DNA of 64,000 nt from Microbacteriaceae bacterium (GTDB taxonomy: Bacteria > Actinomycetota > Actinomycetes > Actinomycetales > Microbacteriaceae), in assembly GCA_004297935.1 (NCBI GenBank), contig SCRE01000021.1, positions 62,001-126,000 on the forward strand, written 5' to 3'. This document shows, piece by piece, positions 25,469 to 64,000 of this stretch. Every line of letters starts with the position of its first letter. Within the stretch, counting starts at the first letter, position 1. The translations under genes and the position numbers were made by a program. Under the pieces are notes generated by a model. That model was not told the DNA's origin, made no database searches, and saw only the letters and a program-made list of their open reading frames with translations.

Positions 25469-25510
25469 GTGCCGCGAGGTCAGTGCCGCGAGGTCAGTGC
25501 CGCGGGGCCG
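25469..25510. repeat. 14-bp tandem repeat across the LacI stop codon
   Basis: Two identical GTGCCGCGAGGTCA units followed by a third, partly diverged one. The array contains the LacI stop codon (25494-25496), and each full unit carries a TGA on the minus strand, so changes in copy number could alter the C-terminus only slightly. About 35 bases before it, 25423-25434 reads ATCGCTTGCGAT, a short inverted repeat. Confidence 0.75.
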
Positions 25511-45748: not shown

Positions 45749-45879
45749 GCGAGCAGGATATCGCGCGATGGCCCCACTCCGGTTCAACGGCTCGGTCGTT
45801 GCGACCGGGAGACCACCCGATGTCCCAGCGAGATGCCAGGCCTCAGAAGCCCCTGCGCAAGCCGCCAGCCGTTGCCCGG

Positions 45880-46347: not shown

Positions 46348-46386
46348 TTCAGAACCTCCATGTTCGTCCATTGCTTTCGTGCAGTT

Positions 46387-47042: not shown

Positions 47043-48326
47043 TCAGCGTCCCAGAAGCTCCGGGTGCAATTCAGTCGAAACGACGGTGCGAGCCAGTATC
47101 CGCCCCGATTTGATCACGATGCGATCCTCCGACGATTGCGCCATTGCCTGCTCCAACGATTCACCTTTGATCGCCAGTAGATCCGCGGGGAATCCGACCG
47201 CCACTTCGACGGAGGGAAGGCCCATCACGGCACGCGCGCACGAGGACACGCTCGCATATGCTTCGAGGGTGCGCAAATGCGCAGCCGAGACCAGAAGTGA
47301 TGCGGTTTCCATCGCATCGATCCTGCCCATTGGGTTGAACGGGTCTCGCCAATTGTCGCTTCCGCCGGCGACGGTGACGCCCGCATCAATGAGAGTCCTC
47401 ACCGCCGTCAAGCCGCGCGGCTTCTTGGTCACAGACTCACGTCCCTGCAGGTAGAGGTTGGTCTGCGGAAGGGTTATGACACCGACGCCTGCGTCCGCAA
47501 CAGCCCGTGCAGTAGCGGACGCAGTTTCACGATCCTGCACACCCAGGCTGACACAGTGCGATGCAGTCACGGGCAGAGCGAATCCTGTAGTACACACCAT
47601 GTCAGCCAGTGAGCGCAAGACCAGCATCTGCGGATCCGTCGTCTCATCCAGGTGCAGGTCCATGCCTTTTCCGTAGGCACGCGCCACGGCCATCAATTCG
47701 ACCAAGGAGCCGACTCGGTCATCTTCGAGCGCCGGACATCCTCCAACGATGTCGGCTCCAGCAGACATGGCCTGATCGAGTAGTTCGCGGCCCACGACGC
47801 CACTTGGCCCGCTCACGTCTTTGGAGAGCGCGACAACCTGGACGTCAACGATACCCTGCAGTCTTTCGCGCACCTCGACCAGTGCGTCGACTCCGCGCAT
47901 GCCTACGCCAACGCCACAATCGACATGTGTCCTCACGGCCGTGTAGCCATGGGTCACCGCCGCCGTGAGTGCGGCAAGGGCTCTGCGCCCGATATCTTCC
48001 GGCGTCATCGAGTCGTAGGCAGCTTCGATCGCCTCAATTGCACCGGCGAGGTCACCGGTCACATTGGGAACGCGTGCCGCGACGAGCGCTTTGTCGAGGT
48101 GAGCGTGTGGTTCGACCGGAGAGGGGAGCAGAACGTAGCCGCTCAAGTCGATGTCAGCCGGCGGCTCGAACCCTGCCATGGACTCGCCGAACCTCGACTC
48201 CCGCCCGCCGGGAGATTCGGACTCGACGACGTCCGTTATCCGCCCGTCTCGAATCATCACATCCACGACTCGCCCATCTTTGAGTGTGGCAGAGCGCAGT
48301 TGATGCGTGGAGTGGCCTGACATCAT
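47043..48326 (-). CDS. Cytosine deaminase-like amidohydrolase
   Basis: A 427-residue metal-dependent hydrolase of the CodA/TrzA-type amidohydrolase group. Metal ligands are seen in EPHAHLDKA, LHLDETTD, TASHCVSLG and GGSDNWRDPFNPMG. The cytosine-deaminase fingerprint DNWRDPF is clear, but the true substrate could be another aminated or amide heterocycle. ATG codons at 48326 and 48323 are adjacent and no ribosome site precedes them. Divergent from the FadR-type regulator, and the first clue to the catabolic region that follows. Confidence 0.9.
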   Translation of the reverse strand: MMSGHSTHQLRSATLKDGRVVDVMIRDGRITDVVESESPGGRESRFGESMAGFEPPADIDLSGYVLLPSPVEPHAHLDKALVAARVPNVTGDLAGAIEAIEAAYDSMTPEDIGRRALAALTAAVTHGYTAVRTHVDCGVGVGMRGVDALVEVRERLQGIVDVQVVALSKDVSGPSGVVGRELLDQAMSAGADIVGGCPALEDDRVGSLVELMAVARAYGKGMDLHLDETTDPQMLVLRSLADMVCTTGFALPVTASHCVSLGVQDRETASATARAVADAGVGVITLPQTNLYLQGRESVTKKPRGLTAVRTLIDAGVTVAGGSDNWRDPFNPMGRIDAMETASLLVSAAHLRTLEAYASVSSCARAVMGLPSVEVAVGFPADLLAIKGESLEQAMAQSSEDRIVIKSGRILARTVVSTELHPELLGR

Positions 48327-48331: not shown

Positions 48332-48485
48332 CATGCTAGCAAGTACGAAGGTCAGACAGCGAGTGACGCCGAGGGCCTACACTTTCCCGAGGCTGCGTGA
48401 ATTGACAACGGAGTAATTGCAAGCCGCTCAGCAAGTGCGACCGACGACTATTTCCCCAGACACCGAGATTGGAAAAATCACAACG

Positions 48486-49238
48486 ATGGCTGCGACAAGT
48501 CGACCAACCTCAAAACCGAGCTTTGTGACAGTTTCACGACTTGGACCGACCCAGCAAGCACAGAATCAACTGCTTGCTGCGATCAGCAGCGGCGATTACC
48601 CGCCCGGCACCCTACTGCCTTCAGAACGCGTGCTTTGCGAGATGTTCGGCGTCAGTCGGGTGAGCATTCGTGAGGCGTTGGCTGGACTTGCCGCAACCGG
48701 CCTCATAGACATTCAGCAGGGCAAGGGCGCCTTCGTACGCCCTCGAGTCGCGGACGAATATGCCGGCCCATTCGGGCTCTACATCGAGATGCACCGCGAT
48801 GAGCTCTCCGAATTGCTGCGCGTTCGCGGCGCTTTGGACGGCCTTGCAGCCTCGGAAGCGGCAGTACACGCTTCTGCCAAAGCCCGGGCTTCTCTCACTC
48901 GGGCACACGATGACTTCAAGGCTGCCGTCCTGGCCAGTGCTACCCCTCAAGCGCTCACCGCCCTCGATGTCAAATTCCACGAAGCCATCGCGTCGTCCGG
49001 GCGCGGGACGCTGTTGCCCGGCTTGCTCAAAGAGCTCAACAATCTCCTGGTCGAGTCGCGACACATCCTGTTCGCTCGTGAAGGGCAACCGAAGCGGTCT
49101 GTTGCCGACCATGCAGTCATTCTGCAGGCTATCCTCGACGGAGACTCGGCCAAGGCGCAACTCTGTGCAACCGTGCACGTCGAAAAGATGTGGAGTTGGG
49201 TTGAGGAGTTCCACAGCAGTAAGCTCGGCGCCTCTTAG
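48486..49238 (+). CDS. GntR-family regulator, FadR subfamily
   Basis: A 250-residue regulator. The winged helix reads SGDYPPGTLLPSERVLCEMF, GVSRVSIREALAGLAATGLI and the FCD effector domain follows with RGALDGLAASEAAVH and KFHEAIASSG, containing the His/Asp residues that usually bind a metal and a carboxylate ligand. A TTG at 48417 with GGAG just before it is a possible earlier start. It sits divergently to the cytosine-deaminase-like gene and is the only regulator in the 47-64 kb catabolic region, so it probably controls the whole set. Confidence 0.9.
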   Translation: MAATSRPTSKPSFVTVSRLGPTQQAQNQLLAAISSGDYPPGTLLPSERVLCEMFGVSRVSIREALAGLAATGLIDIQQGKGAFVRPRVADEYAGPFGLYIEMHRDELSELLRVRGALDGLAASEAAVHASAKARASLTRAHDDFKAAVLASATPQALTALDVKFHEAIASSGRGTLLPGLLKELNNLLVESRHILFAREGQPKRSVADHAVILQAILDGDSAKAQLCATVHVEKMWSWVEEFHSSKLGAS

Positions 49239-49348: not shown

Positions 49349-50776
49349 TCAGTCGTACAGTGTTGTGGTCGTGGGAACATCGTGCGTCAACCCCGCCCGC
49401 TCCACGATCGAAGCCGCACGTTCGCGTGCCTCAGCACGTAACGCACGCTCGTCAATACTCGGGATCGCACCGTCCGCGAATACCGCCGTTCCAGCCACCC
49501 ACGTTTCGACAATACTGGCGGCGCTTGCCGACCACACCAGTGCCTGTTCCGGATCACGATAGGGCGTCCACTCATGGTGATCAAGATCGAAGAAGACCAG
49601 GTCCGCCTCCTTGCCGACCTCAAGCGAACCGATCTGATCGTCCCAACCGAGCGCTTTGGCGCCGTCGATGGTTGCCATTCTGATGGCCTTGCGTGCGCCG
49701 ACCAGGTTTGGGTCGCGACGCGAGTCTTTGAACAGACCCGCGACAAGGTGAATCTGGCGGTGCAGGTTGAGGTTGCCTGCCGCTGACACGCCATCCGTGC
49801 CCAAGCCGACGGTCACACCGCGCTCGATCATCTCGGGATACTTGCCGATGTCGGTTGCGCCCTTGGCCAACTTGAGCGAGGTCGACGGGCAGAAGGCGAC
49901 GGACGTCCCGGCCTGTGCGATCAGGTCGACCTCGGCATCCGTCAGGGCCACGGCGTGCGCGAGCACTAAGTTCGAGCCAAGCCCATCATGCTGCGCGATG
50001 CGAGTGACCGGCCAGACCCCGTGCCTGTGCTCGCTGCCCATCGACTCTTCCAGGCTGGATGCGATGTGGTAGGTCGTGCCCACACCAAGCTCCTGGGCCA
50101 ACGCACGAGCACCGATGTGCAGCTCGAGGCTGCATGGCTCCTTGCCTTCAATGTTGACCCAGCAACGCACCCGGCCATCGGCGTAGCCGTTCCATTCCTT
50201 CACGGATGCCTCGAGAGTTTCGAGTGCCACTTCGTAGTTGGAAAAGAAGTGGTGGTCCATCATCTCGTCTGACCACCCTGCCGGGGCCTTGTCCGGTCGC
50301 ACGTCGGCGGCGTGCCGTGCGACAACACCACGGATGCCGATCCGCTCGGCTGCACGGGCGGTAAGCCCTGCATCGTTTTGCGCGCCCATGTCGAGGAAAC
50401 AGGTCGTGCCGCTGCGCAGCATCTCTGCCGTCCCGGTGAGCACGCTGACGCGTTCATCTTCCTCGTTGACATGGGCGTAGAACGGCTTGGCCCAGTGGAA
50501 CACCCAGGCACGCGTTGCCAACAGGTCGGGGAAAACGGCACGGCTCAATGATTCAGAAAGATGCACGTGGGTATCGATGAACCCCGGGGTGACGCCGCGC
50601 GTACTGCCATCGACAACACGCTCAGGGGTGCTGCCCGCGAGCCGTTGACGCACCTCGCTCGCTGTCCCGATGTCGACGATCTTCGTTCCGTCGATCAAGA
50701 GCGCAGCATCGCGGATGACGCGGTCAGCGCGATCGGCCGTGATTGCGAATTGCAAGTGCTCGATAAGCGTGGCCAT
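49349..50776 (-). CDS. TrzN/AtzA/SsnA-type amidohydrolase
   Basis: A 475-residue COG0402 metal-dependent hydrolase. VTPGFIDTHVHLSESLSR carries the HxH metal pair, LVLAHAVALTDAEVD the next His, FCPSTSLKLAKGATD and GLGTDGVSAAGNLNLH the catalytic Asp region. Relatives deaminate or dechlorinate N-heterocycles (guanine, S-adenosylhomocysteine, s-triazines, hydroxy-aminopyridines). The substrate here is unknown. Divergent from the M24 gene at 50894 across a short control region. Confidence 0.9.
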   Translation of the reverse strand: MATLIEHLQFAITADRADRVIRDAALLIDGTKIVDIGTASEVRQRLAGSTPERVVDGSTRGVTPGFIDTHVHLSESLSRAVFPDLLATRAWVFHWAKPFYAHVNEEDERVSVLTGTAEMLRSGTTCFLDMGAQNDAGLTARAAERIGIRGVVARHAADVRPDKAPAGWSDEMMDHHFFSNYEVALETLEASVKEWNGYADGRVRCWVNIEGKEPCSLELHIGARALAQELGVGTTYHIASSLEESMGSEHRHGVWPVTRIAQHDGLGSNLVLAHAVALTDAEVDLIAQAGTSVAFCPSTSLKLAKGATDIGKYPEMIERGVTVGLGTDGVSAAGNLNLHRQIHLVAGLFKDSRRDPNLVGARKAIRMATIDGAKALGWDDQIGSLEVGKEADLVFFDLDHHEWTPYRDPEQALVWSASAASIVETWVAGTAVFADGAIPSIDERALRAEARERAASIVERAGLTHDVPTTTTLYD

Positions 50777-50846
50777 TGTCCTGACTTCACCTCGTTTGAA
50801 TCGAATCGACGCTTAATTCATACCGTAGCGCCCTCATCAGATACTA

Positions 50847-50856
50847 ATATGATGTC
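50847..50856 (+). promoter_or_regulatory. Second ATATGATGTC element, upstream of the M24 gene
   Basis: The same ten bases as at 48319-48328. They are preceded by TACTAAT and flanked by CAGA/TCTG. The ATG codons inside the element are in frame with the M24 gene, so a start at 50849 would add 15 residues; the ATG at 50894 with its GGAGG is preferred. Confidence 0.35.
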
Positions 50857-50893
50857 TGTTGTAATACCAGCTGATCACCTTGGAGGAGTGCCC

Positions 50894-52015
50894 ATGCGAG
50901 ACGACGTCGTAACCCGCTTGCGTGCAACCATTGCCGAGCATGGATTAGGGGCCCTCGTCTGTCTCTCCCCCGAGAATGTCGCCTATACTGCCGGCTTCGT
51001 CATCCCCTCACAATCGCTCATGCGCTGGCGACACGCTGCGACCGTCATCCATGCCGACGGGCGACAAGCGGTCGTTTGCGTCGACATGGAAGAGACGACC
51101 GTGCGCGCCCACATCGGCGAGCATGACGAGGTGCGGGTATGGAAAGAGTTCGTCGATAAGCCCATGGCCATCCTCGCCCGACTTCTGCTGGACTGGGGCC
51201 TTGGCTCCGCCGCAGTCGGCACCGAGTTGGACTACCTCTCGGCAGACGACCACGCACAACTCATGGAGTATGCACCTGACATTCGCCTCGTTGCGGCAGG
51301 GCCGTTGCTCACCGAAGCCAGGCAACCCAAGACGCCGAGCGAACTCGTGCTGCTCGAGCAGCTCTCACGCATTTCCGACACCGCGATAAAGACCGCGTTC
51401 GAGGCCGTGCGAGCGGGATCGACCGAGATGGATATCGCAGCCGCCCTCACCCGAAGCGTGTACGAGCAAGGTGCGCAACAGTTCAAACTCATGATTGTGG
51501 CCACAGGTGAGCGCAGTCAACTGCCCAATGTGGGGCCGACAATGCGCACCCTCATACCAGGCGACATCTGCCGAGTGGAGATCTTCTCCGTGATCGACGG
51601 ATACCAGGCCGGGGTTTGCCGCACTGCCGTTGTCGGAGAGGCCAGCGCAAAGGCATCCGAGATCTACGCCAACTTGGTCGAGTGCAAGCACGCCGTTTTC
51701 GATGCGATTCGCCCCGGCGCGAGCTCTCGTTCGGTGTACGACCTGTACCGCGGGATTTTCAACAGGCTCGGACTGCCCGCGATCTCGTTCGTGGCCCACT
51801 CCATCGGGGTCAATCTGCACGAGGCACCGTACTTCGGCCCGTACTCGGACCATGTCATCCGAGAGGGCATGGTGCTCGGCATGGAGCCACTCGTCTACCG
51901 CAGTGGCCACGGCTTCGGCATGCAGATCAAGGACATGATCGCGGTCGAGTCCGATGGAGCGCGCCTTCTCTCCGATGTGACGGACACCGACACTCTCTTC
52001 CAGATCGCCGCCTAG
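50894..52015 (+). CDS. M24-family peptidase-like/creatinase-like hydrolase lacking metal ligands
   Basis: A 373-residue pita-bread-fold protein with the two-domain layout of prolidase and creatinase. The catalytic-domain motifs are AFEAVRAGSTEMDIAAAL, CRVEIFSVIDGYQAGVCRTA, FVAHSIGVNLHEAPYFG, VLGMEPLVYRSG and IKDMIAVESDG. In metal-dependent members the second motif holds two aspartates; here they are not conserved, as in creatinase, which cleaves C-N bonds without metal. A GGAGG site precedes the ATG. Its stop codon shares CTAG with the stop of the convergent ALDH gene. Confidence 0.87.
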   Translation: MRDDVVTRLRATIAEHGLGALVCLSPENVAYTAGFVIPSQSLMRWRHAATVIHADGRQAVVCVDMEETTVRAHIGEHDEVRVWKEFVDKPMAILARLLLDWGLGSAAVGTELDYLSADDHAQLMEYAPDIRLVAAGPLLTEARQPKTPSELVLLEQLSRISDTAIKTAFEAVRAGSTEMDIAAALTRSVYEQGAQQFKLMIVATGERSQLPNVGPTMRTLIPGDICRVEIFSVIDGYQAGVCRTAVVGEASAKASEIYANLVECKHAVFDAIRPGASSRSVYDLYRGIFNRLGLPAISFVAHSIGVNLHEAPYFGPYSDHVIREGMVLGMEPLVYRSGHGFGMQIKDMIAVESDGARLLSDVTDTDTLFQIAA

Positions 52016-53496
52016 AACAGGTTGACGTTCGAGTCGAAGTTGAGATGCTTGGTCTCCGTGAACTCGAGGATCCCTTCGATGCCTTGCTGGCGTCCGACTC
52101 CCGAGCGCTTGAACCCGCCGACCTCGGTCTCGCCGTAGAAGTGGTGGTAGGTGTTGATCCAGATCGTGCCGGCCTCCACAGCACGGCCGACGCGCCAGGA
52201 ACGATCAAGATTGGTCGTCCACAACCCGCAGGCCAAGCCGAACTCTGTTCCATTGGCGATGGCGATCGCCTCTTCCTCTGTGCTGAACTTCTGTACGGCG
52301 AGAACCGGGCCGAAGACCTCTTCGGCGATCAGGCGCGAATCCGGTGCGATGTCGGTCACGATGGTCGGCTCGACGAAGTGCCCACGATCATATGGCGCGT
52401 CTTCCAGCAGGGTTCCGCCTGTGACGATCGTGCCGTCTTGTCGGCCGATCTCCACATAGCCGAGCACCGCCTTCTTCTGCACAGCAGAGACAAGCGGCCC
52501 CATCTGAGTGGATGCATCGAGTCCATCACCCACGCGCATCGCCTTGGCGCGTACGGCGAGCCTCTCAACGAACTCGTCGTGGATGCTTTCCTCGATGACA
52601 AGACGGCTGCCTGCCGTGCAGATCTGACCCGCAGCGGAGAAGACGGCGTTCTCTGCACCGGCTAGCGCCTTCTCCAGGTTGGCGTCCGCGAAGACGATAT
52701 TCGGTGACTTGCCGCCCAGCTCGAGCGAGACCTTCTTGAGGCCGTCTGCCGCATGCTTCATGACATTGATACCCGTCGTGGAGTCACCGGTGAAGGCGAT
52801 CATCTCGACGTGGTCACTCTTGACCAGTCGGTCGCCGACTGTCGCACCTGAGCCGACAACGGCCGCGATGATTCCGTCGGGGATGTCCTGATCGACTGCA
52901 AGCAACGAAAGGGCCTGGACCACGATCGCCGGAGTCAGGCTTGCCGGCTTCACAATCACGGCGTTGCCCGCGGCCAGTGCCGGCGCCACAGCGCGGATCG
53001 TCAGGTTCAGCGGATAGTTCCACGGGGTGATTGCGGCGACGACACCGACTGGCTCACGCAGAATCACACCGTGAACTCCGTCATTCAGCGCGAGCGAACG
53101 GCCGTACAGGGCCCGAGCAAGACCGGCGTTGTACTCGATCATGCTGATGCTGCTTGCGACCTCACCGCGAGCTTGACCGATCGTCTTGCCCTGCTCACGG
53201 GTCAACAGTTCTGCGAGTTCTTCAGCGTGAGAGCGCATGGCTTCAGCCCACCGGTTGAGCACACGGGCGCGGGTGGCGCCGTCATTGCGCCACGGCGTGG
53301 AGCGAAAGGCTGTGCGAGCAGAATCGATAGCACTGTCGACATCGGAAATACTGGACACCGCGATGTTGGCGACCAGGTCGCCAGTGGCCGGGTCGAAGCT
53401 CTGCAGTCGGTCAGCCGATGCAATCAGGCACGGGGCAGAGCGTCGATCGAGCTCCAACACCGCCCAGGGCTTTCTCGGGGAAAAAGAGGCACTCAC
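52012..53496 (-). CDS. NAD(P)-dependent aldehyde dehydrogenase
   Basis: A 494-residue ALDH: FTGDSTTGINVMKHAA (cofactor-binding), SLELGGKSPNIVFADANL with the catalytic Glu, SAAGQICTAGSRLVI with the nucleophilic Cys, and EEVFGPVLAVQKF near the end. The GTG start has AAAGG nine bases upstream. Betaine-aldehyde- and amino-aldehyde-type dehydrogenases look alike, so the substrate is open; an aldehyde formed in the catabolic region is likely. Confidence 0.95.
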   Translation of the reverse strand: MSASFSPRKPWAVLELDRRSAPCLIASADRLQSFDPATGDLVANIAVSSISDVDSAIDSARTAFRSTPWRNDGATRARVLNRWAEAMRSHAEELAELLTREQGKTIGQARGEVASSISMIEYNAGLARALYGRSLALNDGVHGVILREPVGVVAAITPWNYPLNLTIRAVAPALAAGNAVIVKPASLTPAIVVQALSLLAVDQDIPDGIIAAVVGSGATVGDRLVKSDHVEMIAFTGDSTTGINVMKHAADGLKKVSLELGGKSPNIVFADANLEKALAGAENAVFSAAGQICTAGSRLVIEESIHDEFVERLAVRAKAMRVGDGLDASTQMGPLVSAVQKKAVLGYVEIGRQDGTIVTGGTLLEDAPYDRGHFVEPTIVTDIAPDSRLIAEEVFGPVLAVQKFSTEEEAIAIANGTEFGLACGLWTTNLDRSWRVGRAVEAGTIWINTYHHFYGETEVGGFKRSGVGRQQGIEGILEFTETKHLNFDSNVNLF

Positions 53497-53766
53497 GCGG
53501 TTCAGCCTTTCAGCTTGTCTTCACTGCCCGACCCGGCTGCTGCCGACATCGTCATCCAACCCTTCAGATGACCAACTGGACTGACATGTGATATGTTTGC
53601 TTATTGGTTGCTATCGTCTATCGGACTGGCAGGGATGTCAAGACGGAAGGCGATTCGCACAGGGTTTTCAGTCGCTGCGCGAAGCGTGCAATTGATGATC
53701 ACCTGCAGAGAACCGCGACAGGACGACACGCATCCAGCCGCGACGAGCCAGCGAAGGACACAGACA

Positions 53767-53961
53767 ATGCCGTTTGTTCAGATCCACATGTGGGAAGGGC
53801 GCTCTGTCGAACAGAAGCGCAAACTCACTCAAGCAATCACGGACGCCATGGTCGAGTTCGCCGATGCAAAACCGGATGGCCTGCACGTGGCCATCTCTGA
53901 GTACTCTCGCGAAAACTGGGCCCGCGCAGGCGTGCTCGGCATTGACAGGAAAGACGCATGA
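53767..53961 (+). CDS. 4-oxalocrotonate tautomerase-type protein
   Basis: A 64-residue tautomerase with the catalytic Pro after the initiator Met (MPFVQIHMWEGRS) and QKRKLTQAITDAMVEF as the helix. Such enzymes ketonise dienols and related acids. The next gene begins in an ATGA overlap at 53958, so they are cotranslated. The region 53497-53766 before it is the divergent promoter region with ALDH and holds an AT-rich TGACATGTGATATGT stretch near 53581. Confidence 0.9.
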   Translation: MPFVQIHMWEGRSVEQKRKLTQAITDAMVEFADAKPDGLHVAISEYSRENWARAGVLGIDRKDA

Positions 53962-54956
53962 ACGAGAACCCGGCCATCAGCAGCTTGAGCAGGGAATCCG
54001 CGGCACTATTGATCATCGACCCGCAGAATGCGTTCGTGCACCCCGAAGGCACGCTCGGCTTGTCCGGTGTGAACATCGCCCCCGCGCAGCAGGCGATCCT
54101 CTCCATGCGTCGTCTGGCAGAGCAGTTCAAGGCAGCCGGCCTGCCGGTGATCTGGACGAAGCAGATCCATCTCGAGAAAGACGCCTCACGCGACAAGAAG
54201 AAGCTGGCATCCCACACTCAGAAGCGCAAGCAGGTTTCCTGCCTCTCCGGCAGTTGGGATGCCGAGTTCGTCGACGAGATCAAAGATCTGGCCGACGACC
54301 CCGCCTATGTCGTCGTCAAGCACCGATTCGGTGCCTTCCACGAGACCCGGCTCGACACGCTGCTGCAGATGCTCGGTGTGCAGACACTGTTCGTCACGGG
54401 GGTGACAGCCAACGCATGTGTCGAGACCACGCTGCGCGAGGCCTACCTGCGTGACTATGATTCCGTCGCCGTCACCGACGCCATCGCGGCGGTGCGGCCC
54501 GAGTGGATCGATACGGCTCACGCCGTATGGGCACAATACCTCGGTGTGCTGGCCACAGAGGCCGAGGTTCTCACCTGGCTGGAGACAAGCAGCGCACCAC
54601 AGGCGCTCGGATTGCATCACCTGCTACTCGAGGCATCCGACCTGTCCGCGTCGGAGAAGTTCTACTTCGATATTCTCGGCTTCACCGAGCGCAAGCGCGA
54701 AGACTTCCGCGATGGCCGCAGGTTCGTCTCAACGCAGCAAGGCCTGGGGCTGGTTGAGGGCCGCGGCAGGGGAACGAAAGAGGGCGGAACTCTTGAGCAC
54801 TTCTGCTTCAGCGCACGCGGGGTCGATGCCTTGGCCGAGCGCGCCCGTGCTGCCGGTCACCGCATCGTGCGCGGCCCTGGCCCTGGCCCTTATGGACACA
54901 CCGTTTACATCGAAGATCCAGACGGCAACGAAGTCGAGCTCTTCGAGAACGACTAA
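53958..54956 (+). CDS. Isochorismatase-like cysteine hydrolase fused to a VOC domain
   Basis: A 332-residue two-domain protein. Residues 1-205 form an isochorismatase-like hydrolase with the triad Asp21 (LLIIDPQNAF), Lys121 (VVKHRFGAF) and Cys154 (TGVTANACVETTLREA); such enzymes remove amides or carbamoyl groups (ureidoacrylate, biuret, N-carbamoyl compounds). From about 213 to the end lies a vicinal-oxygen-chelate domain (GLHHLLLEASDLSASEKFY to IEDPDGNEVELFEND). Both are complete and joined by a short linker. The fusion suggests that one compound passes through both active sites. Confidence 0.9.
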   Translation: MNENPAISSLSRESAALLIIDPQNAFVHPEGTLGLSGVNIAPAQQAILSMRRLAEQFKAAGLPVIWTKQIHLEKDASRDKKKLASHTQKRKQVSCLSGSWDAEFVDEIKDLADDPAYVVVKHRFGAFHETRLDTLLQMLGVQTLFVTGVTANACVETTLREAYLRDYDSVAVTDAIAAVRPEWIDTAHAVWAQYLGVLATEAEVLTWLETSSAPQALGLHHLLLEASDLSASEKFYFDILGFTERKREDFRDGRRFVSTQQGLGLVEGRGRGTKEGGTLEHFCFSARGVDALAERARAAGHRIVRGPGPGPYGHTVYIEDPDGNEVELFEND

Positions 54957-54995: not shown

Positions 54996-56150
54996 ATGAA
55001 GATCACCGACATTATCGTGCACCTGGTGCAACTGCCTTCTCGGCGCGACCACAACTGGGCCTCCAAGATGAACACGCCCATCGGCCACCACGCGATCATT
55101 GAAATCCTCACCGACGAAGGTGTCGTCGGATGGGGCGAGGCTCCCGCAGGTGCAACCTGGGGTGGTGCCCACGGGCGTTACTTCGGCGAGTCGCCTGAGA
55201 CCGTCCAGGTCGTCATCCGCGACTATCTGCTTCCCGCTATCACGGGTATGGATCCGGCGCACATCTCACTGATCCACGCGGCAATGGACAAGGCCGTCAA
55301 GGGCCACCCTTATGCCAAGGCATCCGTCGATATTGCCTGCTATGACCTTGCCGGCAAGGCATCGGGGGTGCCGGTGAGCACCCTGCTCGGCGGTTCGCAC
55401 CGTGGCTCCATCGAGGTTGCGCACTCGCTCGGCATCATGGAGCTTGACGCTTGCTATGCAGAGGCCGAGCAGGCTGTTGCCGAAGGCGCGCTCACCATCA
55501 AGTGCAAGACGGGCTTGGATGAAGAGCGCGATGTCACCCTGGTGCGTGAACTGCGTCGCCTGCTCGGGCCGAAGATCAAGATTCGGGTGGACGGCAACGA
55601 AGGTTACACCAGCGTCGCCAGTGCTGTTGCGGTCACCAAGGCACAAGAGGAGTACGACCTGTTGCTCTGCGAGCAGCCGGTCGTGGGCGCCGTGGGCCTT
55701 GGCCGCGTTGCCGGACGCATCTCCAGCCCGGTCATGGCGGATGAATCAGCCTGGAACGTCCACGACGTACTCGAACTGGACAAGCTCGACGCCGCTGCCT
55801 GCATCTCGCTGTACGTCACCAAGCCGGGTGGCCTGTACCGCGCCAAGCAGGTCGGCGACCTTGTCGAGTCGCTTGACATGTACTGCGACATCGGCGGCTC
55901 AATCGAAACCGGTATCGGCAATGCGGCCAACCTGCACCTGGGCAGCGCCACCCGCGTGGCAACCCTGCCCAGCGTGTGCCCGGTCTCCCAGCCAGAAGGC
56001 GGCAACGGCCCGAAGATTGCCGGTGTCTACTACGTCGACGACCTGATCACGCAGCCGTTGAAATACGAGAACGGTCGTGTCTTCACTCCCACCGGCCCTG
56101 GCCTGGGAATTGAGGTCGACCGTGAGAAACTGATCCGGTATTCGGTATGA
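54996..56150 (+). CDS. Enolase-superfamily (mandelate racemase/muconate lactonizing type) enzyme
   Basis: A 384-residue member with capping domain and barrel. Acid-base Lys residues occur in LTIKCKTGLDEE, metal ligands in RVDGNEGY, CEQPV and MADESAW, and the second catalytic Lys in LYVTKPGG, the pattern of the MLE subgroup. It could be a cycloisomerase, an epimerase or a dehydratase; the subgroup does not settle it. A weak site lies before the ATG; the end overlaps the next gene as ATGA. Confidence 0.9.
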   Translation: MKITDIIVHLVQLPSRRDHNWASKMNTPIGHHAIIEILTDEGVVGWGEAPAGATWGGAHGRYFGESPETVQVVIRDYLLPAITGMDPAHISLIHAAMDKAVKGHPYAKASVDIACYDLAGKASGVPVSTLLGGSHRGSIEVAHSLGIMELDACYAEAEQAVAEGALTIKCKTGLDEERDVTLVRELRRLLGPKIKIRVDGNEGYTSVASAVAVTKAQEEYDLLLCEQPVVGAVGLGRVAGRISSPVMADESAWNVHDVLELDKLDAAACISLYVTKPGGLYRAKQVGDLVESLDMYCDIGGSIETGIGNAANLHLGSATRVATLPSVCPVSQPEGGNGPKIAGVYYVDDLITQPLKYENGRVFTPTGPGLGIEVDREKLIRYSV

Positions 56151-57226
56151 CCGTAGCGGTTCTCGGGGCAGGCGGTGGTGGCCTCTCGGCCACCATCGAG
56201 CTCACCCGTGACAAGAACGACGTGATCCTCTGGAACCGCAATCCTGCCCGGTTGGCGCCTTACCGGGAAACCGGTGAGATCCCCTTTCGCGGGATCTGGG
56301 GCAGCGGCACCTCTCGTCCGTTTGCGTTCAGCACCGACTTAGCCGACACGCTCAGCCGAGCAGACGTCGTCGTTGTGTGCCTGCCCGGTGTCGTGCATCC
56401 GCAGCTCTTTGCTGAACTGGCACGGTTGAAGCCGAGCGCGCCGATCATCCTCAACCCGGGGCACACCGGTGGGGCACTGCATCTGCGCACGGTCTTCACC
56501 TCTCTGGGTGTCACGCCGCCACCGGTCGCCGAGTTCTCGACGCTCACCTACGTGGCGCGAGTGGATGCCGACGGCACAGACCACATCATGGGTCGCGCCG
56601 GCGCGGTCAGGGCTGCCTGTCTTCCCGGCGGGCACGAGGCTCTGGATGCGGCCGTGCGCCTCTTCCACGGCGCAACCCCGGTGTCGGATGTGCTGGCCTC
56701 CAGCCTCTCCAATGTGAACCTCGTGCTCCACCCGCCCGGTGCCATCCTCGGGGCCGCCTGGGTCGAGGCGACCGGTGGCGACTTCACGTTCTACGTCGAC
56801 GGGATGACGCCGGGCGTGGGGCGAGTACTCGATCAGTTGGATGCAGAGCGCTTGGCCGTGGCATCCGCTTTTGGCCACGCACTGCCCTCGCTGCTCGATG
56901 AAATGGTCGAGGTCGGCACGGTCGATGTGGAAGCCGCCAAGCGTGGTGACACCGTCGCCGCAATCCGTGGCGGCGTTGCCAACAGCACCATTGCAGCACC
57001 CGATTCATTCAGGCACCGCTACTACCAGGAAGATCTGGCGTTCGGGTTGCAGCCGTTCAGTGCTCTTGCCACCGTGGCCGGGGTCGATGTTCCTGTTGCG
57101 AACTCGCTGATGAAGCTGGGCGGCATCGCCGTCGGTGGCGACCTTCTCTCCCACGGACTCACCGGTGCGAGGCTGGGCCTTGACGGGCTCACCCGCGACG
57201 AGTTGGTCGCTTCCGTGACATCCTGA
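56147..57226 (+). CDS. Octopine/nopaline dehydrogenase family protein
   Basis: A 359-residue NAD(P)-binding protein with the dinucleotide motif VAVLGAGGGGLSATIEL, GHTGGALHL in the middle and the C-terminal helical domain LHPPGAILGAAWVEATG typical of the opine dehydrogenase family. Opine enzymes join or split an amino acid and a 2-oxo acid by reductive amination. Here an oxidative role in releasing an amine is conceivable. Starts in ATGA overlap with the enolase-type gene. Confidence 0.85.
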   Translation: MTVAVLGAGGGGLSATIELTRDKNDVILWNRNPARLAPYRETGEIPFRGIWGSGTSRPFAFSTDLADTLSRADVVVVCLPGVVHPQLFAELARLKPSAPIILNPGHTGGALHLRTVFTSLGVTPPPVAEFSTLTYVARVDADGTDHIMGRAGAVRAACLPGGHEALDAAVRLFHGATPVSDVLASSLSNVNLVLHPPGAILGAAWVEATGGDFTFYVDGMTPGVGRVLDQLDAERLAVASAFGHALPSLLDEMVEVGTVDVEAAKRGDTVAAIRGGVANSTIAAPDSFRHRYYQEDLAFGLQPFSALATVAGVDVPVANSLMKLGGIAVGGDLLSHGLTGARLGLDGLTRDELVASVTS

Positions 57227-57253: not shown

Positions 57254-58144
57254 ATGACGCTGTCAGATCGAACTATCGCTGTCGTCGGCGGTGACGAGCG
57301 TGAGCAAGAAATCGCACGCCTGGCTGCCACAACGGGTGCGCGAGTCACGGCGTACGGGTTTCCATGGCCCGAGGATGGCGTCGAAGGCGTGACCCGTGCT
57401 TCCAGCGCCCGGGAGGCGCTGGAAGGCGCGGACTACGCGCTGTTTCCCATTCCCGGTCAGGCAGAAAATGGCATCCTGTTCGCGCCGGAGTCGCCCGAGC
57501 CGATTCTGCCTGACGAAGAACTGCTGAGCGTCATGAACCCGGGAGCAACCATTGTTCTCGGCTGGCCGAACAAGGCTCTGGCCACGGCTGCAGCCAATCT
57601 GGGCATCCGCATCAGCGAATATGAGCACGACGTAGAACTGATGTTGCTGCGGGCACCGGCCATCGTCGAGGGGGCCCTGCAGCAGGCGATCGCCAATTCC
57701 GACGTGACCATCCATAACAGCGATGTGCTTGTCGTCGGGCACGGCAATATCGGCCGCATTCTCGCCCGTACGCTGGTGCTGCTCGGTGCGCGCGTGCACC
57801 TGGCTGCGCGCAACCCTGTGCAGCGTGCGGATGCGCTCGCCTCCGGCTGCATTCCGCATCCGCTTGAAGATATCCCTAGCCTCGCCCCCGCTGTGCGCAT
57901 GGTCTTTTCGACCGTGCCATCCCGTGTCGTCGACGTGCACGCTCTGTCTTTGCTCCCCCCGAAGTCGCTCGTAATGGATCTGTCAGCGCCTCCCGGAGGA
58001 ATCGACTTGGCCGCGGCAGCGCGCTACGGTCACACCGCCGTGTGGGCCCGCGGGCTTGGCCGGCGGGCGCCGATCACCGTGGGCGCAAGCCAATGGAGCG
58101 GCATCTCACGGCGCATCTTTGCTATCGAGGAGGAGAAGAAATGA
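57254..58144 (+). CDS. Dipicolinate synthase subunit A-like protein
   Basis: A 296-residue protein: IAVVGGDEREQEIARLAATT resembles the N-terminal domain of DpaA/SpoVFA, and VLVVGHGNIGRILARTLVLL is an NAD(P)-binding motif of the same family. In sporulating Firmicutes the subunit helps form dipicolinic acid, but this organism shows no sign of endospores, so another role on a dicarboxylic N-heterocycle or imine is likely. It ends in a frame overlap (TGA/ATG) with the hydantoinase gene, whose GAGGAGGAG ribosome site lies inside this gene. Confidence 0.82.
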   Translation: MTLSDRTIAVVGGDEREQEIARLAATTGARVTAYGFPWPEDGVEGVTRASSAREALEGADYALFPIPGQAENGILFAPESPEPILPDEELLSVMNPGATIVLGWPNKALATAAANLGIRISEYEHDVELMLLRAPAIVEGALQQAIANSDVTIHNSDVLVVGHGNIGRILARTLVLLGARVHLAARNPVQRADALASGCIPHPLEDIPSLAPAVRMVFSTVPSRVVDVHALSLLPPKSLVMDLSAPPGGIDLAAAARYGHTAVWARGLGRRAPITVGASQWSGISRRIFAIEEEKK

Positions 58145-59535
58145 GCAAGGCCGATCTCATCATCACCAATGCCCGGCTGGTTGATCATGCCGGCGAGCAG
58201 CACGGTGCGATCGCCATCAAGGGCGGCCGAATCTTTGCGATCGGCACAGCGGATGCCATGCCAGAGACCGAACGCACCATCGATGTGGGCGGCAATGTCG
58301 TCATGCCCGGTGTCATCGACCCGCACTGCCACCTCGGCGTGAACTACGGCTATGACGAGGACATGCACACCGAGACGGCCGGCGCAGCTCGTGGCGGTGT
58401 GACCACGATCATGTTGTTCGCACGCAGCATGGATGGTCCCTATGTGCCCTACTACTTCGATCGCCGTGCCCGTGGCGAGGCCGCTGCGGTGATCGACTTC
58501 GGTTTCCACTTCGGCATCCAGCGCCCAGAGCACGTCGGCGAGATCGCCGAGATCGCCGAGAAGACAGGCGTGCAGTGCTTCAAATGCCACATGGGTTATG
58601 AAAAGGGCAACTCGATCGGCATCAACTCCTCTACCGATGGGTGGGTATTCGGAGCCATGCGTGAGGCGGCAAAGCTGCCCCACGGTGTGGTGGCGGTGCA
58701 CTGCGAGAACACGGAGCTGGTCGAACTGCTCAAGCCTGAGATGATGGCAACCGGCCGCGACGACCTTGCCGCGTACACGGAGTCACGCCCCGTGTTCGTG
58801 GAAGAAGAGGCCATCGAGCGGATGATCCGTTGGTCATCCGTCACCGGCTGCCCGCTCTACGTCGTGCACACGACCGCAAAGAACGGCCCGAAGATGGCCG
58901 CCGAGGCACGCACGCGTGGGGTGGATGTCACGATCGAGACCTGCCCGCATTACCTCACTCGTACCGCCTACGACGAAGACCTGGGCAAGACGGCCAAGAT
59001 CTCGCCACCGCTGCGTGATCGTGAGCAGCTGGAAGGTCTCTGGGAGGGCATCTTCAACGGAACGATCGGAACGTTGGGGACCGACCATGTGCCGTTCAAG
59101 AAGAACGGTGGCGATATCTGGCACGAGAAGCCGGGCGTGGTCTCCTTCCCGTGGGAATTGCCGCTCATGCTGCACTTCGGTGTGCACGAGCGCGGACTCT
59201 CGCTTTCGCGCCTGTCGGAGCTCAACTCCTACAACCCGGCCAAGCAGTTCGGCCTGTACCCGCAGAAGGGCGCATTGGCGGTCGGTTCGGATGCCGACCT
59301 TGTTGTGGTCGACCTCGACGAAGAGCGCATTGTCGAACATGATGGCAAGGGAACCTGCCTCTACGAGGGCTGGAAGCTGCGCGGTTGGCCCGTGCTGACG
59401 GTCTCGCGCGGCGACATCGTCTACGACGCGGCCAACCCTGTCGAGCCGGAATATGGCCGCGGCCGTTGCGTGACGATCCCCGACTCAGAGCGCCTCGGCT
59501 CAGGGCGCGAGGGCCTGGCCGCCGCATCCGCCTGA
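58141..59535 (+). CDS. Dihydropyrimidinase/hydantoinase-type cyclic amidohydrolase
   Basis: A 464-residue binuclear-metal amidohydrolase: VIDPHCHLGV holds the HxH pair, CFKCHMGYEKG the lysine expected to be carbamylated (Lys148), VAVHCENTEL and VVHTTAKNGP two further His ligands and LGTDHVPFKK the catalytic Asp. Such enzymes open cyclic imides, hydantoins or dihydropyrimidines. Substrate unknown; the NYGYDED loop differs from classical dihydropyrimidinases. Last gene of the unit beginning at 53767. Confidence 0.92.
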   Translation: MSKADLIITNARLVDHAGEQHGAIAIKGGRIFAIGTADAMPETERTIDVGGNVVMPGVIDPHCHLGVNYGYDEDMHTETAGAARGGVTTIMLFARSMDGPYVPYYFDRRARGEAAAVIDFGFHFGIQRPEHVGEIAEIAEKTGVQCFKCHMGYEKGNSIGINSSTDGWVFGAMREAAKLPHGVVAVHCENTELVELLKPEMMATGRDDLAAYTESRPVFVEEEAIERMIRWSSVTGCPLYVVHTTAKNGPKMAAEARTRGVDVTIETCPHYLTRTAYDEDLGKTAKISPPLRDREQLEGLWEGIFNGTIGTLGTDHVPFKKNGGDIWHEKPGVVSFPWELPLMLHFGVHERGLSLSRLSELNSYNPAKQFGLYPQKGALAVGSDADLVVVDLDEERIVEHDGKGTCLYEGWKLRGWPVLTVSRGDIVYDAANPVEPEYGRGRCVTIPDSERLGSGREGLAAASA

Positions 59536-59568: not shown

Positions 59569-60318
59569 TCAGGCCGTCAACGCCGCATCGGCAGTGATCT
59601 CGGTACCTGAGATGTAGCTGCTGGCGTCGCTCGCCAGGAACAGCGCAATCGTGGCAACCTCCTGCGGCCTGGCAACACGGCCATTGGGAACCATGGCGGC
59701 CAGATGGTCAAGGACCTCAGGGCCGCCTTCGATCATGGGTGTGTCCACAACGCCGGGCGAGATCGAGTTGATACGGATGCCGAACTGTGCGAGCTCATGC
59801 GCCGCGCTGCGGGTCATCCCCCGCACGGCCCACTTGCTCGCTGCGTAGGCGAATGGCTGGTCGCCGCCTTTCATCCCCGAAACGGAACAGGTGTTGACGA
59901 TGGCCCCGCCGCCCGCCCTCCTCATGCCGGGAACGATCGCGGCCATCCCCAAATACATGCCGTACTGGTTGACATCGATCACCCGCCGGTACTCTTCAGG
60001 AGAGGTCTCTTCGAGCCCTTTCATCAGCCACACCCCGGCCGTGTTGAGCAAGACGGTGACTGTGCCCCAGGTCTTCTCTATGAGCGCTACCGCTTCGGCC
60101 CACTGCTGGGGCGATGTGACATCCAGCGGAACGAACATCGCCTTGTCGCCGAGGCTGTCGGCGATCTCGGCTCCGGCCGAACCGGGGAGATCCGCGATCA
60201 CAACCCGAGCGCCGTGCTCCACGAAGAGCCGTGCTTCCGCCTCACCCTGGCCACCGATCGAACCGGCCCCGGTGATGAATGCGATTTTTCCCGTGAGGTC
60301 TGTGAGGTCTGTACTCAT
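59569..60318 (-). CDS. Short-chain dehydrogenase/reductase
   Basis: A 249-residue SDR. The cofactor motif reads FITGAGSIGGQGEAEA, slightly altered from TGxxxGIG; NTAG, the catalytic Ser in SVSGMKGG and YAASK follow, and the C-terminus ends SYISGTEITADAALTA. Probably NAD-specific (VIADLPG). It lies eight bases after the Hyi-like gene with its ribosome site AAGGAAA within that gene's end. Confidence 0.93.
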   Translation of the reverse strand: MSTDLTDLTGKIAFITGAGSIGGQGEAEARLFVEHGARVVIADLPGSAGAEIADSLGDKAMFVPLDVTSPQQWAEAVALIEKTWGTVTVLLNTAGVWLMKGLEETSPEEYRRVIDVNQYGMYLGMAAIVPGMRRAGGGAIVNTCSVSGMKGGDQPFAYAASKWAVRGMTRSAAHELAQFGIRINSISPGVVDTPMIEGGPEVLDHLAAMVPNGRVARPQEVATIALFLASDASSYISGTEITADAALTA

Positions 60319-60326: not shown

Positions 60327-61118
60327 TTACCGGTTGGCAGGCATGAGCCGGTCAATGGCCGCTACTGCTGTCTGCGGGTTGCCGTCGCTCGGCGACGTTT
60401 CGAAGGTGACAGTGCCATCCCAGTGCTGGTCGCGGAGGATCCCCAACAGGTATCCCAGATCGATCTCCCCGGCGCCTGGCTCGAATCGACCGGGAACTTC
60501 GGCCAGGTCAACCCGGGCAAGATAAGGAATGGCGCCGACAAGGCTGTCGGCCAGCCGGCCTTGGCCGAGCTGCTGGTGGAAAGCATCGAAGACAACACCG
60601 ACTTCTGGCCGATTCAACTCGCGCGCCAGGCTCACGACGGTGTTCACGTCGTCCCACAGATAACCAGGCAAGAACAACGTGTTCAGGTGCTCGAGCACAA
60701 GCTGGACTCCGGAACCTGCGACGATGTCCGCTGCCTCGTTCAGACCCTCTAAACAGTGTTCCAGCAGTGTTGCCCGAGCCAGTGGCGGGCTGGGAACAAC
60801 AATCCCACCCGGCCGGATGGCGTTGGAGAACATATGCATCTGGCGCGCACCCACGCGCACCGCAACCTCAAGGTTGGTCTTGATCTCGTCCAAGACAGCG
60901 GTGCGGCTCGCCCTGTCACTGAGCGACGTGTCTCGGGTGGCGAAGAACCCGTTGATTCCGATGCCGGCATCGACGGCCGCATCGTGAACCCGGTCGATAT
61001 CGCTATTGCGCCAGTCCCACAGATCGACCAGATCGAAACCGGCTGCAGCAGCCTCGCCGACGCGCTCGGCAAACGGTTTGTCCGTCCACATCAACTGGAT
61101 AGACACAGATCGCAGCAT
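60327..61118 (-). CDS. Hydroxypyruvate isomerase-like TIM-barrel protein
   Basis: A 263-residue barrel. LVLEHLNTLFLPGYLW has the Glu and Asn of the Hyi family, VVFDAFHQQLGQGRL and LARVDLAEVPGRFEPG the next metal residues and TVTFETSPSD closes it. Relatives isomerise hydroxypyruvate and 2-oxo-tetronate-type compounds. GGGAGGT lies before the ATG. Cotranscribed with the SDR gene and probably with the importer genes upstream. Confidence 0.85.
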   Translation of the reverse strand: MLRSVSIQLMWTDKPFAERVGEAAAAGFDLVDLWDWRNSDIDRVHDAAVDAGIGINGFFATRDTSLSDRASRTAVLDEIKTNLEVAVRVGARQMHMFSNAIRPGGIVVPSPPLARATLLEHCLEGLNEAADIVAGSGVQLVLEHLNTLFLPGYLWDDVNTVVSLARELNRPEVGVVFDAFHQQLGQGRLADSLVGAIPYLARVDLAEVPGRFEPGAGEIDLGYLLGILRDQHWDGTVTFETSPSDGNPQTAVAAIDRLMPANR

Positions 61119-61404: not shown

Positions 61405-62406
61405 TCACTTACCGCTCGGCAAGAACTCCGTCGTGAATGCCGACTTGTAGTCCATGTCCGGCTTGACCTGCTTGATCTCAGCAAGCTGGTCACGGAGTTC
61501 TTTCATTCGGGCATCGCTGATCTGACCAATGTCCGGCGTACCCAGAATATTGTCCTTCTTCATCAGGTTGACCGCGAAGTCGAAGACGCCAGGGTCCGCG
61601 TCTGGGTTCTGCTTCTTGACGAAAGCCGCCGTGGCCGACGGATCGGTCAAAAGCTTGTTCCAGCCATCGACAGTGGCCGCGACCACAGCCTTGACGACGT
61701 CAGGGTGCTGCTTCGCGAAACTCTCCGTGGTGAAGAGCATGTCCTGGTAGGCGTTGTATCCGCTGTCCTTGACGCGCAGGTAGCCGATGTCACTCAGGCC
61801 CATCTTCTGGATGGTGTACGGCTCATTGGTGATGAAGCACTGCAGCACCATGTTCTGATCCTTCTGGAACGCTGCCAGAGAGGTGATGTTGACAACCTTG
61901 ACGTCATTCAGGTGGAAGTGGCCCTGAATGAAGTCCCAATACGGACTGGGCACGCGGGAAACAGTGACATCCGGCTTGTTCAATGAGGCAAAGTCCGTGA
62001 TCCCTGTGCTCTTGTGATAAGCCAGGCACTGCAGGTTTTCAGCAGGCCCCGCGGCTACCGCAACGATGGGCAGGCCACTTTGGCGGGCGACCAGAATTTC
62101 ATCGGCGTTGCCGACTCCGAATTCGGCCTTGCCTGCCGCAACCTGCGGGATCGTCTGAATGCCCGGGCCGCCCTGCTTGAAGTTGACCTTGACGCCGTAC
62201 TTCTTGCCCAGGTCGTTCGCGTCTGCCGCGATGTAACCGCCCATCTCAGCTTGGGCAAACCAGTTACCGAGTATCGTCGCTGATCCTAGGTCCTTCTTGC
62301 CGGTGCTGCCCCCAGAAGACGACCCCCCGCCACTGGCGCAACCGCTGATACCGAGAGTCACCGCGGCCGCGATGGTGACACCAACGAGCCATCTGTTCTT
62401 TTTCAT
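61405..62406 (-). CDS. ABC substrate-binding lipoprotein (NMT1/THI5-like)
   Basis: A 333-residue binding protein of the SsuA/THI5/NMT1 type. The lipobox ISGCAS follows the signal helix; the binding part begins ILGNWFAQAEMGGYIAAD with PQVAAGKAEFGVGNADEI. This family carries pyrimidine precursors of thiamine, taurine, alkanesulfonates or aromatic heterocycles, so a nitrogen heterocycle is a fair guess here. AGGAGG precedes the ATG. Confidence 0.92.
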   Translation of the reverse strand: MKKNRWLVGVTIAAAVTLGISGCASGGGSSSGGSTGKKDLGSATILGNWFAQAEMGGYIAADANDLGKKYGVKVNFKQGGPGIQTIPQVAAGKAEFGVGNADEILVARQSGLPIVAVAAGPAENLQCLAYHKSTGITDFASLNKPDVTVSRVPSPYWDFIQGHFHLNDVKVVNITSLAAFQKDQNMVLQCFITNEPYTIQKMGLSDIGYLRVKDSGYNAYQDMLFTTESFAKQHPDVVKAVVAATVDGWNKLLTDPSATAAFVKKQNPDADPGVFDFAVNLMKKDNILGTPDIGQISDARMKELRDQLAEIKQVKPDMDYKSAFTTEFLPSGK

Positions 62407-62462
62407 GACAATGTCCTCCTGCTTGGCTACTCACTTATTTGGGTACAAAGGGAATTGCTGTT

Positions 62463-63338
62463 TTACTCGTCAACCTTCATTGCGGATTCGTGCCAGTTCC
62501 TGATCAAACGGTTTCCGATCCAGCTCACGACGATGAAAAATGCGAAACCAAGCAGGGTCGCTGCCAAGACTTCCGCGAAGAGCAGGGGGGTTTGCAGGCG
62601 AGTCTGGGCAAAAATGACTTTGACTCCAAGACCGCCTTGTTCCCCACCGGAGCCGATGATGAACTCGCCGACGATCGCTCCGATGACGGAGAGGCCCGCA
62701 GAAATCTTGAAGCCGGCGAATATGTGCGGAAGCGCACCCGGCAGGCGCAGCTTGACGAACTCGGTCACCTTGTTCGCCTTGTGCATGCGGAACAGATCAA
62801 GCTGGTTCCGGTCGGCACTGGAGAGCCCGAGGAGCGTGTTGTTCAGAATCGGGAACAACGAAATCATGAAAGCAATCACGATCACCGAGTTGGTGTTGTA
62901 GCCGAACCACAACACGATAATCGGGGCCACCGCCACAATCGGCACCGTCTGAAGGAGCACCGCATAGGGGTAGAAGCTGGTTTCCAACGGTTTGCTCAGC
63001 GACATGATGATCGCGCCGAGCATTCCGACAATGATGGCCGCGATGAACCCGATGGCTGATTCGGTGAAGGTGATCCACAGTCCACCGGCCAACGTGTCAA
63101 GGTTTTGCCAGGCGGCCTCGGCCACCTGCAGAGGTCGCGGCACCAGGTAATTCGAGTCTCCGTAAACCGTGACCGAAACCAGCCACCATACAAAGATGAA
63201 CAATACGAAGACCAGCACGGGCGGTCCGGCTCGAAATACCAGCCTTTTCCAGCGAGGTTCTTTCTGCAGGGCCTTGACTGCCTGGTCTTTTCCGGCACCC
63301 GGTTGTGCACCCAAGCCGACGGGTGATGTTGCAGTCAT
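62463..63338 (-). CDS. ABC transporter permease (SsuC/TauC/ThiX type)
   Basis: A 291-residue permease with six helices; the cytoplasmic EAA-type loop is [20 protein letters not shown]. It starts in an ATGA overlap with the ATPase stop codon and is followed by the binding-protein gene after 56 bases. Confidence 0.94.
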
Positions 63339-64000
63339 TGTGCAGCCGCCTCACGTAGGCACTGGGATATTTCCTGGGAGAGCTCGACGAACGTTGGGTC
63401 GTGACGGATCTCTTCACGACGTGGGAAATCGAATGGAATGTCAAAAATTTGCTGAATACGCCCGGGCCGTGCCGACATCACAACCACACGGTGTGACAAG
63501 AACACGGCCTCATAAAGGTTGTGCGTGACAAACAGCGAAGTGAATCCGGTCTCTTCCCAGATGCGTGACAACTCCGACTGCATCTGCTCGCGAGTGATTT
63601 CATCCAGCGCAGAGAACGGCTCATCCATCAAGAAGAGTTCCGGTCCCAGCGCCAGAGCGCGGGCAAGGGAGGCACGCATTTTCATACCGCCTGAGAGGCC
63701 TCTCGGGTACGATTTTTCGAACCCAGCCAACCCGACCATCTTCAGCGCGTTCCGAACACGCTCTTTGCGCTCGGGCTTGGGAATGTTCTCCAACTCCAGC
63801 AGTAGCCGAGTATTGGCATCGACCTTGCGCCAGGGAAGCAGCGTCGCATCCTGAAAGACGAAGGCACGGGAAGAATCTCCGTGGATATCGATCTCGCCGC
63901 CGGTGGGTGAAATCAGCCCGGCGATGATGCGTAACAGTGTGGACTTGCCGCATCCAGACGGTCCCAGCAGAGAGACGAACTCCCCGTGACCAATAGCAAG
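63335..64000 (-). CDS. ABC transporter ATP-binding protein (partial, 5' end beyond the window)
   Basis: The frame is open to the last base. Walker [11 protein letters not shown] lies at the window's edge, the Q-loop is [10 protein letters not shown], the signature [15 protein letters not shown], Walker [14 protein letters not shown] and the H-loop [12 protein letters not shown]. It is the SsuB/TauB-type partner of the downstream permease. Only the first few N-terminal residues, before [14 protein letters not shown], are missing. Confidence 0.95.

Follow-up and report, generated by a model that had tools for sequence, protein, structure and literature searches.

An isochorismatase-like hydrolase fused to a vicinal-oxygen-chelate domain tags a catabolic gene cluster common to Actinobacteria and Alphaproteobacteria

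Introduction

In creatinine breakdown, N-carbamoylsarcosine amidohydrolase removes the carbamoyl group once a hydantoin-type ring has been opened, and clusters that pair a hydantoinase with an N-carbamoyl amino acid hydrolase (hyu clusters) follow the same order, ring opening and then carbamoyl removal. Glyoxalase I has four protein metal ligands, which are H/E/H/E in E. coli GloA. RutB yields carbamate and 3-aminoacrylate, the latter being deaminated by RutC of the Rid family (PMC8113886), and the substrate-stabilizing residues of the E. coli enzyme are Gln27 and Asn73 (PMC12553813). For the biuret hydrolase BiuH and seven homologues, nine active-site positions are listed as conserved (PMC5806882).

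Here we analyzed a 64,000-nucleotide window of a Microbacteriaceae contig, in which an earlier note had described an isochorismatase-like hydrolase (ISO) fused to a vicinal-oxygen-chelate (VOC) domain. No relevant paper on the fusion or its gene cluster was found in open-licence PubMed Central, and the paper on plasmid pUSP1, which carries a related cluster, makes no mention of isochorismatase, hydantoin or opine genes (PMC8460812).

Architecture of the fusion

The fusion and its two domains are positioned in the window as follows.

53958..54956, plus strand: ISO-VOC fusion ORF of 332 aa (translation; 23 full-length sequences examined)
54000..54563, plus strand: isochorismatase-like cysteine hydrolase domain (ISO), aa 15–202 (PF00857, E 7.7e-39)
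54609..54941, plus strand: VOC/glyoxalase-fold domain, aa 218–328, with the putative metal triad H221/H281/E327 (PF00903, E 7.9e-18)

The translated reading frame is open throughout from ATG 53958 to TGA 54956 and, as the earlier note had it, neither a stop nor a frameshift interrupts it between the two halves. The ISO half matches PF00857 over the full length of the model (positions 1–174 of 175) with 134 bits against a curated 27, and the VOC half, which the same note had called complete, covers positions 1–121 of the 121 in PF00903 with 65.4 bits against a curated 20.6 (Pfam). A chance origin of these matches is untenable because the Pfam scores are so high, and by its sequence the protein is a member of both the isochorismatase-like (PF00857) and the VOC (PF00903) superfamilies; both models were also matched in 15/15 members of one fusion alignment. 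Structure prediction, a check that had been suggested from the sequence, gave complete folds for both halves in an AlphaFold2 model built from a 40-row alignment with two plasmid sequences left out (pLDDT 93.9, pTM 0.84), as compared with a pLDDT of 78.7 for an earlier model from 15 rows. No chain among the structure matches listed by Foldseek is described as joining ISO and VOC domains. A scan for promoters and terminators around the fusion ORF found nothing, and an Rfam scan of window positions 40000–64000 gave no match.

Genes around the fusion

The following genes surround the fusion in the window.

47043..48326, minus strand: cytosine-deaminase-like amidohydrolase
48417..49238, plus strand: GntR/FCD regulator
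49349..50776, minus strand: amidohydrolase of the 5'-deoxyadenosine/8-oxoguanine deaminase–atrazine chlorohydrolase group
50561..52015, plus strand: M24 creatinase/prolidase-like hydrolase, N-terminal extent uncertain
52012..53496, minus strand: aldehyde dehydrogenase (ALDH), divergent from the fusion operon
53767..53961, plus strand: 4-oxalocrotonate tautomerase (4-OT)-type enzyme, 64 aa, starting Met-Pro (PF01361)
54996..56150, plus strand: muconate-cycloisomerase-like enzyme of the enolase superfamily, with the KxK, D, E, D and K motifs present
56147..57226, plus strand: opine-type dehydrogenase (nearest solved structure N-(1-D-carboxylethyl)-L-norvaline dehydrogenase 1bg6, E 3.5e-47)
57254..58144, plus strand: dipicolinate-synthase-A (DpaA)-like dehydrogenase
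58042..59535, plus strand: hydantoinase/dihydropyrimidinase-like amidohydrolase (nearest solved structure L-hydantoinase 1gkr, E 2.5e-70)
59569–60318, minus strand: SDR dehydrogenase
60327–61118, minus strand: xylose-isomerase-like TIM barrel
61405..64000, minus strand: NMT1/THI5-type ABC transporter, comprising substrate-binding protein, permease and ATPase (cut by the window end)

The stop codon of the tautomerase overlaps the fusion start by 4 bases (ATGA), and the 58-codon upstream extension of the listed tautomerase ORF (53593–53961) is probably untranslated. The metal motifs of the hydantoinase-like amidohydrolase are complete (HxH, K, H, H, D), and its true start probably lies downstream of 58042. 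The gene at 57254–58144 belongs to a catabolic cluster that has nothing to do with sporulation, and the name 'dipicolinate synthase' transferred to it is probably misleading. Both the SDR dehydrogenase and the TIM barrel have homologues in several actinobacterial clusters. Farther upstream, at 44303–46875, lie neighbors with DUF993 and 3-dmu-9_3-mt matches and a short ORF that matches only the C-terminal domain of L-arabinose isomerase and is possibly a gene remnant.

Occurrence and history of the fusion

The fusion is genuine and not an assembly artefact. The same architecture in one open frame of 321–338 aa recurs across the 23 sequences examined, which come from independent records, some of them complete plasmids. 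This leaves a negligible chance that a frameshift, a chimeric assembly or read-through of two genes produced it, and nothing in favor of such an origin was found. Separate ISO and VOC genes, which the earlier note would have taken as a sign of an assembly error, were looked for in the cluster, and no such split homologues occur among those found.

Our genome scan, which relies on six short peptides and thus yields a lower bound, recovered 16 further loci with the full fusion at 47–78% identity, both in Actinobacteria (Arthrobacter, Leucobacter, Nakamurella and other MAGs) and in Alphaproteobacteria (Bauldia, Afifella, Rhodoplanes, Pseudochelatococcus, Nitratireductor and others). In addition, 14 plasmid records from Aminobacter, Shinella and Phyllobacterium carry the fusion, annotated there as 'isochorismatase family protein' only. 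Laboratory strains with the cluster include Shinella sp. HZN7 and Aminobacter sp. MSH1, and a colony of the latter remained able to grow after loss of pUSP1. Among 396 sampled genomes of its own phylum it was found in four, its own and three others (about 1%), and the full-length protein is absent from the 58 nearer relatives examined (0/58). These counts agree with the earlier view that the fusion is uncommon. In the libraries searched there was no matching family model and no known family of this architecture, which, had it been large, would have counted against that view. The rarity of the fusion, its patchy occurrence and its presence in different phyla point to horizontal transfer; further, unrelated ISO-VOC fusions may occur elsewhere.

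On A. aminovorans plasmid pAA03 (L109), copies of a Mu-transposase/TniB/TniQ unit at 5022–8377 and 23329–26684 flank the catabolic cluster, in which the amidohydrolase is shortened and lies at one end; this arrangement may make the cluster a mobile catabolic unit.

The ISO halves form one clade relative to eleven stand-alone relatives (support 99/99). A single clade of VOC halves is not rejected (p-AU 0.77) and fits better than a free quick tree, but the long branches of the fusion at locus L014 and of several stand-alone rows make this the weaker evidence. Between the ISO and VOC halves, pairwise distances show a correlation of 0.84. By simple NG86 counts, seven pairs give dN/dS values of 0.00–0.15 for the VOC half, much like those for the ISO half; dS is close to saturation for window/L001.

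Conservation of the cluster

We compared the context of the fusion across 25 loci, with identity thresholds chosen by the analyst. The most constant partner is the hydantoinase-like amidohydrolase, present in 23/25 loci, with the contigs of the other two (L005 and L006) ending before it; at L011, L012 and L014 it is the sole tested cluster gene near the fusion. The tautomerase follows in 22 loci, the opine-type and the DpaA-like dehydrogenases in 21 each, the cycloisomerase-like enzyme and the deaminase-type amidohydrolase (homologue of 49349..50776) in 20 each, and, at a low identity threshold, the cytosine-deaminase-like amidohydrolase in 17; an NMT1-type transporter is often in the cluster. 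A close DpaA-like gene (at least 60% identity) occurs in the same 4/396 genomes as the fusion, one further genome having a distant 35% match (Fisher p 1e-9, uncorrected for relatedness). On plasmids, the records with a close DpaA-like gene are precisely the 14 that carry the fusion, and four further DpaA matches there are distant (29–34% identity).

The clusters of Aminobacter, Shinella and Phyllobacterium additionally encode a Rid protein, a CobW-type GTPase and an NAD(P) transhydrogenase. The Rid protein is encoded as a separate gene in many alphaproteobacterial clusters, and it was looked for in the actinobacterial loci and not found. Aminobacter clusters contain inserted genes for D-amino acid dehydrogenase and malate synthase G, and in strain MSH1 (pUSP1) a glycine riboswitch lies upstream of them (L087:11478–11568), a second one being present in a homologous cluster at L089:8124–8226. 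The riboswitch in the MSH1 cluster suggests that glycine is one product there.

Several further genes accompany the cluster. Genes for ThDP-dependent dehydrogenases of the E1 type lie nearby at L007, L008, L014 and L099–L101, and a partial one at the edge of L001. At L009 (16643–18310) and L016 (14138–15799) the CobW-type GTPase is fused to a domain of about 220 aa that has no Pfam match and resembles a stand-alone gene, annotated 'resolvase' or hypothetical, next to the ISO-VOC gene at L010–L013, at L015 and on the plasmids. A PhyH-type oxygenase assignment for the 216–253 aa protein of some clusters was rejected: Pfam gives no match, and at L009 and L016 a domain resembling it is joined to CobW.

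The ISO half resembles carbamoyl hydrolases

The triad that the earlier note had placed at Asp21, Lys121 and Cys154 lies at exactly these positions and is invariant in all 23 aligned full-length fusions, as are Q23, Q69, H71 and E156. RutB (E. coli; PDB 8bkd) is the top match of the ISO half in both sequence (E 9e-22) and fold (Foldseek E 1e-16); it shares the D/K/C triad and the Gln, and it acts beside pyrimidine-ring opening. Unlike the fusion, however, RutB has no VOC domain, and two of its substrate-site residues are replaced, with Asn73 aligning to Q69 and the Tyr three residues past the catalytic Lys aligning to F124, which counted against a RutB-like reading. Except for the Rid-family gene in alphaproteobacteria, no other gene of the rut cluster was recognized near the fusion. 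An identity with RutB itself was rejected, as the TIGR03614 equivalog model gives 93.9 bits against a cut-off of 377.95.

Foldseek, run on the 40-row model, placed the biuret and triuret hydrolases BiuH and TrtA directly after RutB. They share the fold, the triad and the conserved active-site positions with the ISO half, in which all nine are present at the same spacing (D21, Q23, F26, K121, F127, T130, G148, C154 and T158), whereas they have no VOC domain and the biuret-binding Lys145 of BiuH corresponds to F124. Given this replacement and a score of 71.7 bits against the cut-off of 370 for NF050097, an identity with BiuH was rejected as well. N-carbamoylsarcosine amidohydrolase (PDB 1nba, Arthrobacter) is also among the best matches and has the fold of the ISO half, but its identity is low, it has no VOC domain and the neighbors of the fusion are mostly not creatinine-breakdown enzymes.

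The ISO half might instead cleave a simple terminal amide, maleamate- or nicotinamide-like, and release ammonia rather than act on a ureido group. Maleamate amidase and nicotinamidase are indeed fold matches, and the tautomerase and the muconate-cycloisomerase-like neighbor recall aromatic diacid chemistry; yet both amidases rank below RutB, BiuH and TrtA, and the constant partner of the fusion is a cyclic-ureide-type hydrolase, so we regard this alternative as unlikely. Because of the fold, the active-site residues and the gene context, the ISO half would most likely be a urea-type (carbamoyl) hydrolase working most like RutB. The amide cleavage previously proposed as an example for the first half fits it, given RutB, BiuH and TrtA as nearest relatives and the adjacent ring-opening amidohydrolase.

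The VOC half carries a putative metal site

The putative metal ligands, for which the earlier note named no residues, are H221, H281 and E327 (spacing H-60-H-46-E), conserved in 22/23 fusions. In the one at L014 (9998–10963) all three are lost and the fusion is retained. Close to this gene are an E1/E2 dehydrogenase set and a gene resembling those for molybdopterin xanthine dehydrogenases. Among solved structures, Foldseek with the 15-row model (pLDDT 78.7) matched the VOC half best to E. coli glyoxalase I (1f9z), which, like FosA, shares its fold and the H, H and E ligands. In contrast to glyoxalase I, the fusions have no conserved fourth ligand: position 267, by inspection the equivalent of the second glyoxalase I ligand, varies among E/Q/S/D/H/A/G/N. 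With the four-ligand site not conserved and scores far under all the equivalog cut-offs, a glyoxalase I identity was rejected, as was that of the fosfomycin thiol transferase FosA (26 against a cut-off of 250 bits). At L001 (3546–4010), L003 (5284–5775) and L005 (5268–5759) the cluster has a second, separate VOC gene with methylmalonyl-CoA-epimerase-like scores.

Alternatively, the VOC half could work as a small ring-cleaving extradiol dioxygenase that supplies a meta-cleavage route involving the ALDH and the tautomerase. The 2-His-1-Glu triad, weak matches to the HpaD and catechol 2,3-dioxygenase models and the ALDH and 4-OT neighbors would suit such an enzyme, but the domain is single and short, its scores are more than 10-fold under the curated cut-offs, and the catalytic-histidine position holds G or E in the actinobacterial forms, though H in most alphaproteobacterial ones. 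The type I extradiol signature PS00082 is unmatched in 23/23 fusions, on which a type I extradiol identity was rejected, and the dioxygenase reading appears very improbable.

Mean column conservation is 61% in the VOC half as compared with 74% in the ISO half, and with this lower conservation its role may vary. Only the ISO half might be catalytic, the VOC half serving as a structural, dimerizing or ligand-binding module. VOC folds can bind without catalysis, as the antibiotic-binding TnmS1 and TnmS2 among the fold matches illustrate, and the L014 protein kept its domain despite losing the metal ligands. Retention of the metal triad in 22/23 fusions across two phyla and the low dN/dS speak against a purely accessory role, which we consider doubtful; the same two lines of evidence, the triad and purifying selection, argue for the VOC half as a putative working domain.

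Proposed pathway

We propose, with a probability of about 0.5, that the fusion would be a bifunctional catabolic enzyme, in which the ISO half removes the carbamoyl group of a ureido compound and the VOC half then converts the product. As judged from the neighboring genes, the hydantoinase/dihydropyrimidinase-like hydrolase encoded four genes downstream would first open a cyclic ureide or similar ring to give a ureido acid. Cys154 would then attack the carbamoyl group, with Asp21 as the base and Lys121 in support, as the fold, the active-site residues and the context suggest, giving carbamate (CO2 and NH3) together with an amine or enamine, in the manner of RutB on ureidoacrylate. The VOC half may bind a divalent metal through His221, His281 and Glu327 and convert the unstable product or the carbon skeleton by isomerization, enolization or lyase chemistry, after which the tautomerase, the cycloisomerase-like enzyme and the two NAD(P)-dependent dehydrogenases would complete the route. 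The presumed role of the fusion would be hand-over of a reactive intermediate. Of the two successive steps on one metabolite that the earlier note suggested, the second, there exemplified by a metal-dependent rearrangement, is putative.

The linked ring-opening amidohydrolase in 23/25 loci counted for the ureido-hydrolase reading, and the Rid protein in many alphaproteobacterial clusters, RutC being of the same family, counted for a RutB-like one. For the bifunctional enzyme as a whole we also counted the clade results of the two halves and the AlphaFold2 model. Against it we counted that Rid proteins come from genes of their own and turned up in none of the actinobacterial loci, together with the ligand loss at L014 and the lower conservation of the VOC half.

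The pathway substrate is likely an N-heterocycle or a cyclic guanidine or ureide; hydantoin- or creatinine-like compounds, purine ring-opening products, the pyrimidine part of thiamine and opines were each set aside for too little support. Only tentatively do we suggest the fuller scheme, in which a bifunctional enzyme of single origin would pass its product directly from ISO to VOC at the center of an undescribed, mobile cyclic-ureide/guanidine pathway ending partly in glycine.

Discussion

The proposed order of ring opening and carbamoyl removal would parallel that of hyu clusters. In contrast to these, carbamoyl removal here would fall to an isochorismatase-fold cysteine hydrolase with a VOC domain joined to it, and the partners are a tautomerase, a cycloisomerase-like enzyme and an opine-type dehydrogenase.

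Our analysis indicates that the fusion reliably marks a conserved catabolic cluster of 8–12 genes, which Actinobacteria have in common with Alphaproteobacteria and which also occurs on plasmids of Aminobacter and Shinella strains. The catabolic pathway is apparently undescribed; both enzyme types joined in the fusion are already known. The fusion joins two enzyme superfamilies in what would be one series of steps and is a candidate for the hand-over of a reactive intermediate. The substrate, once found, would give names to genes now annotated as unrelated fragments, such as tautomerase, cytosine deaminase, dipicolinate synthase and opine dehydrogenase.
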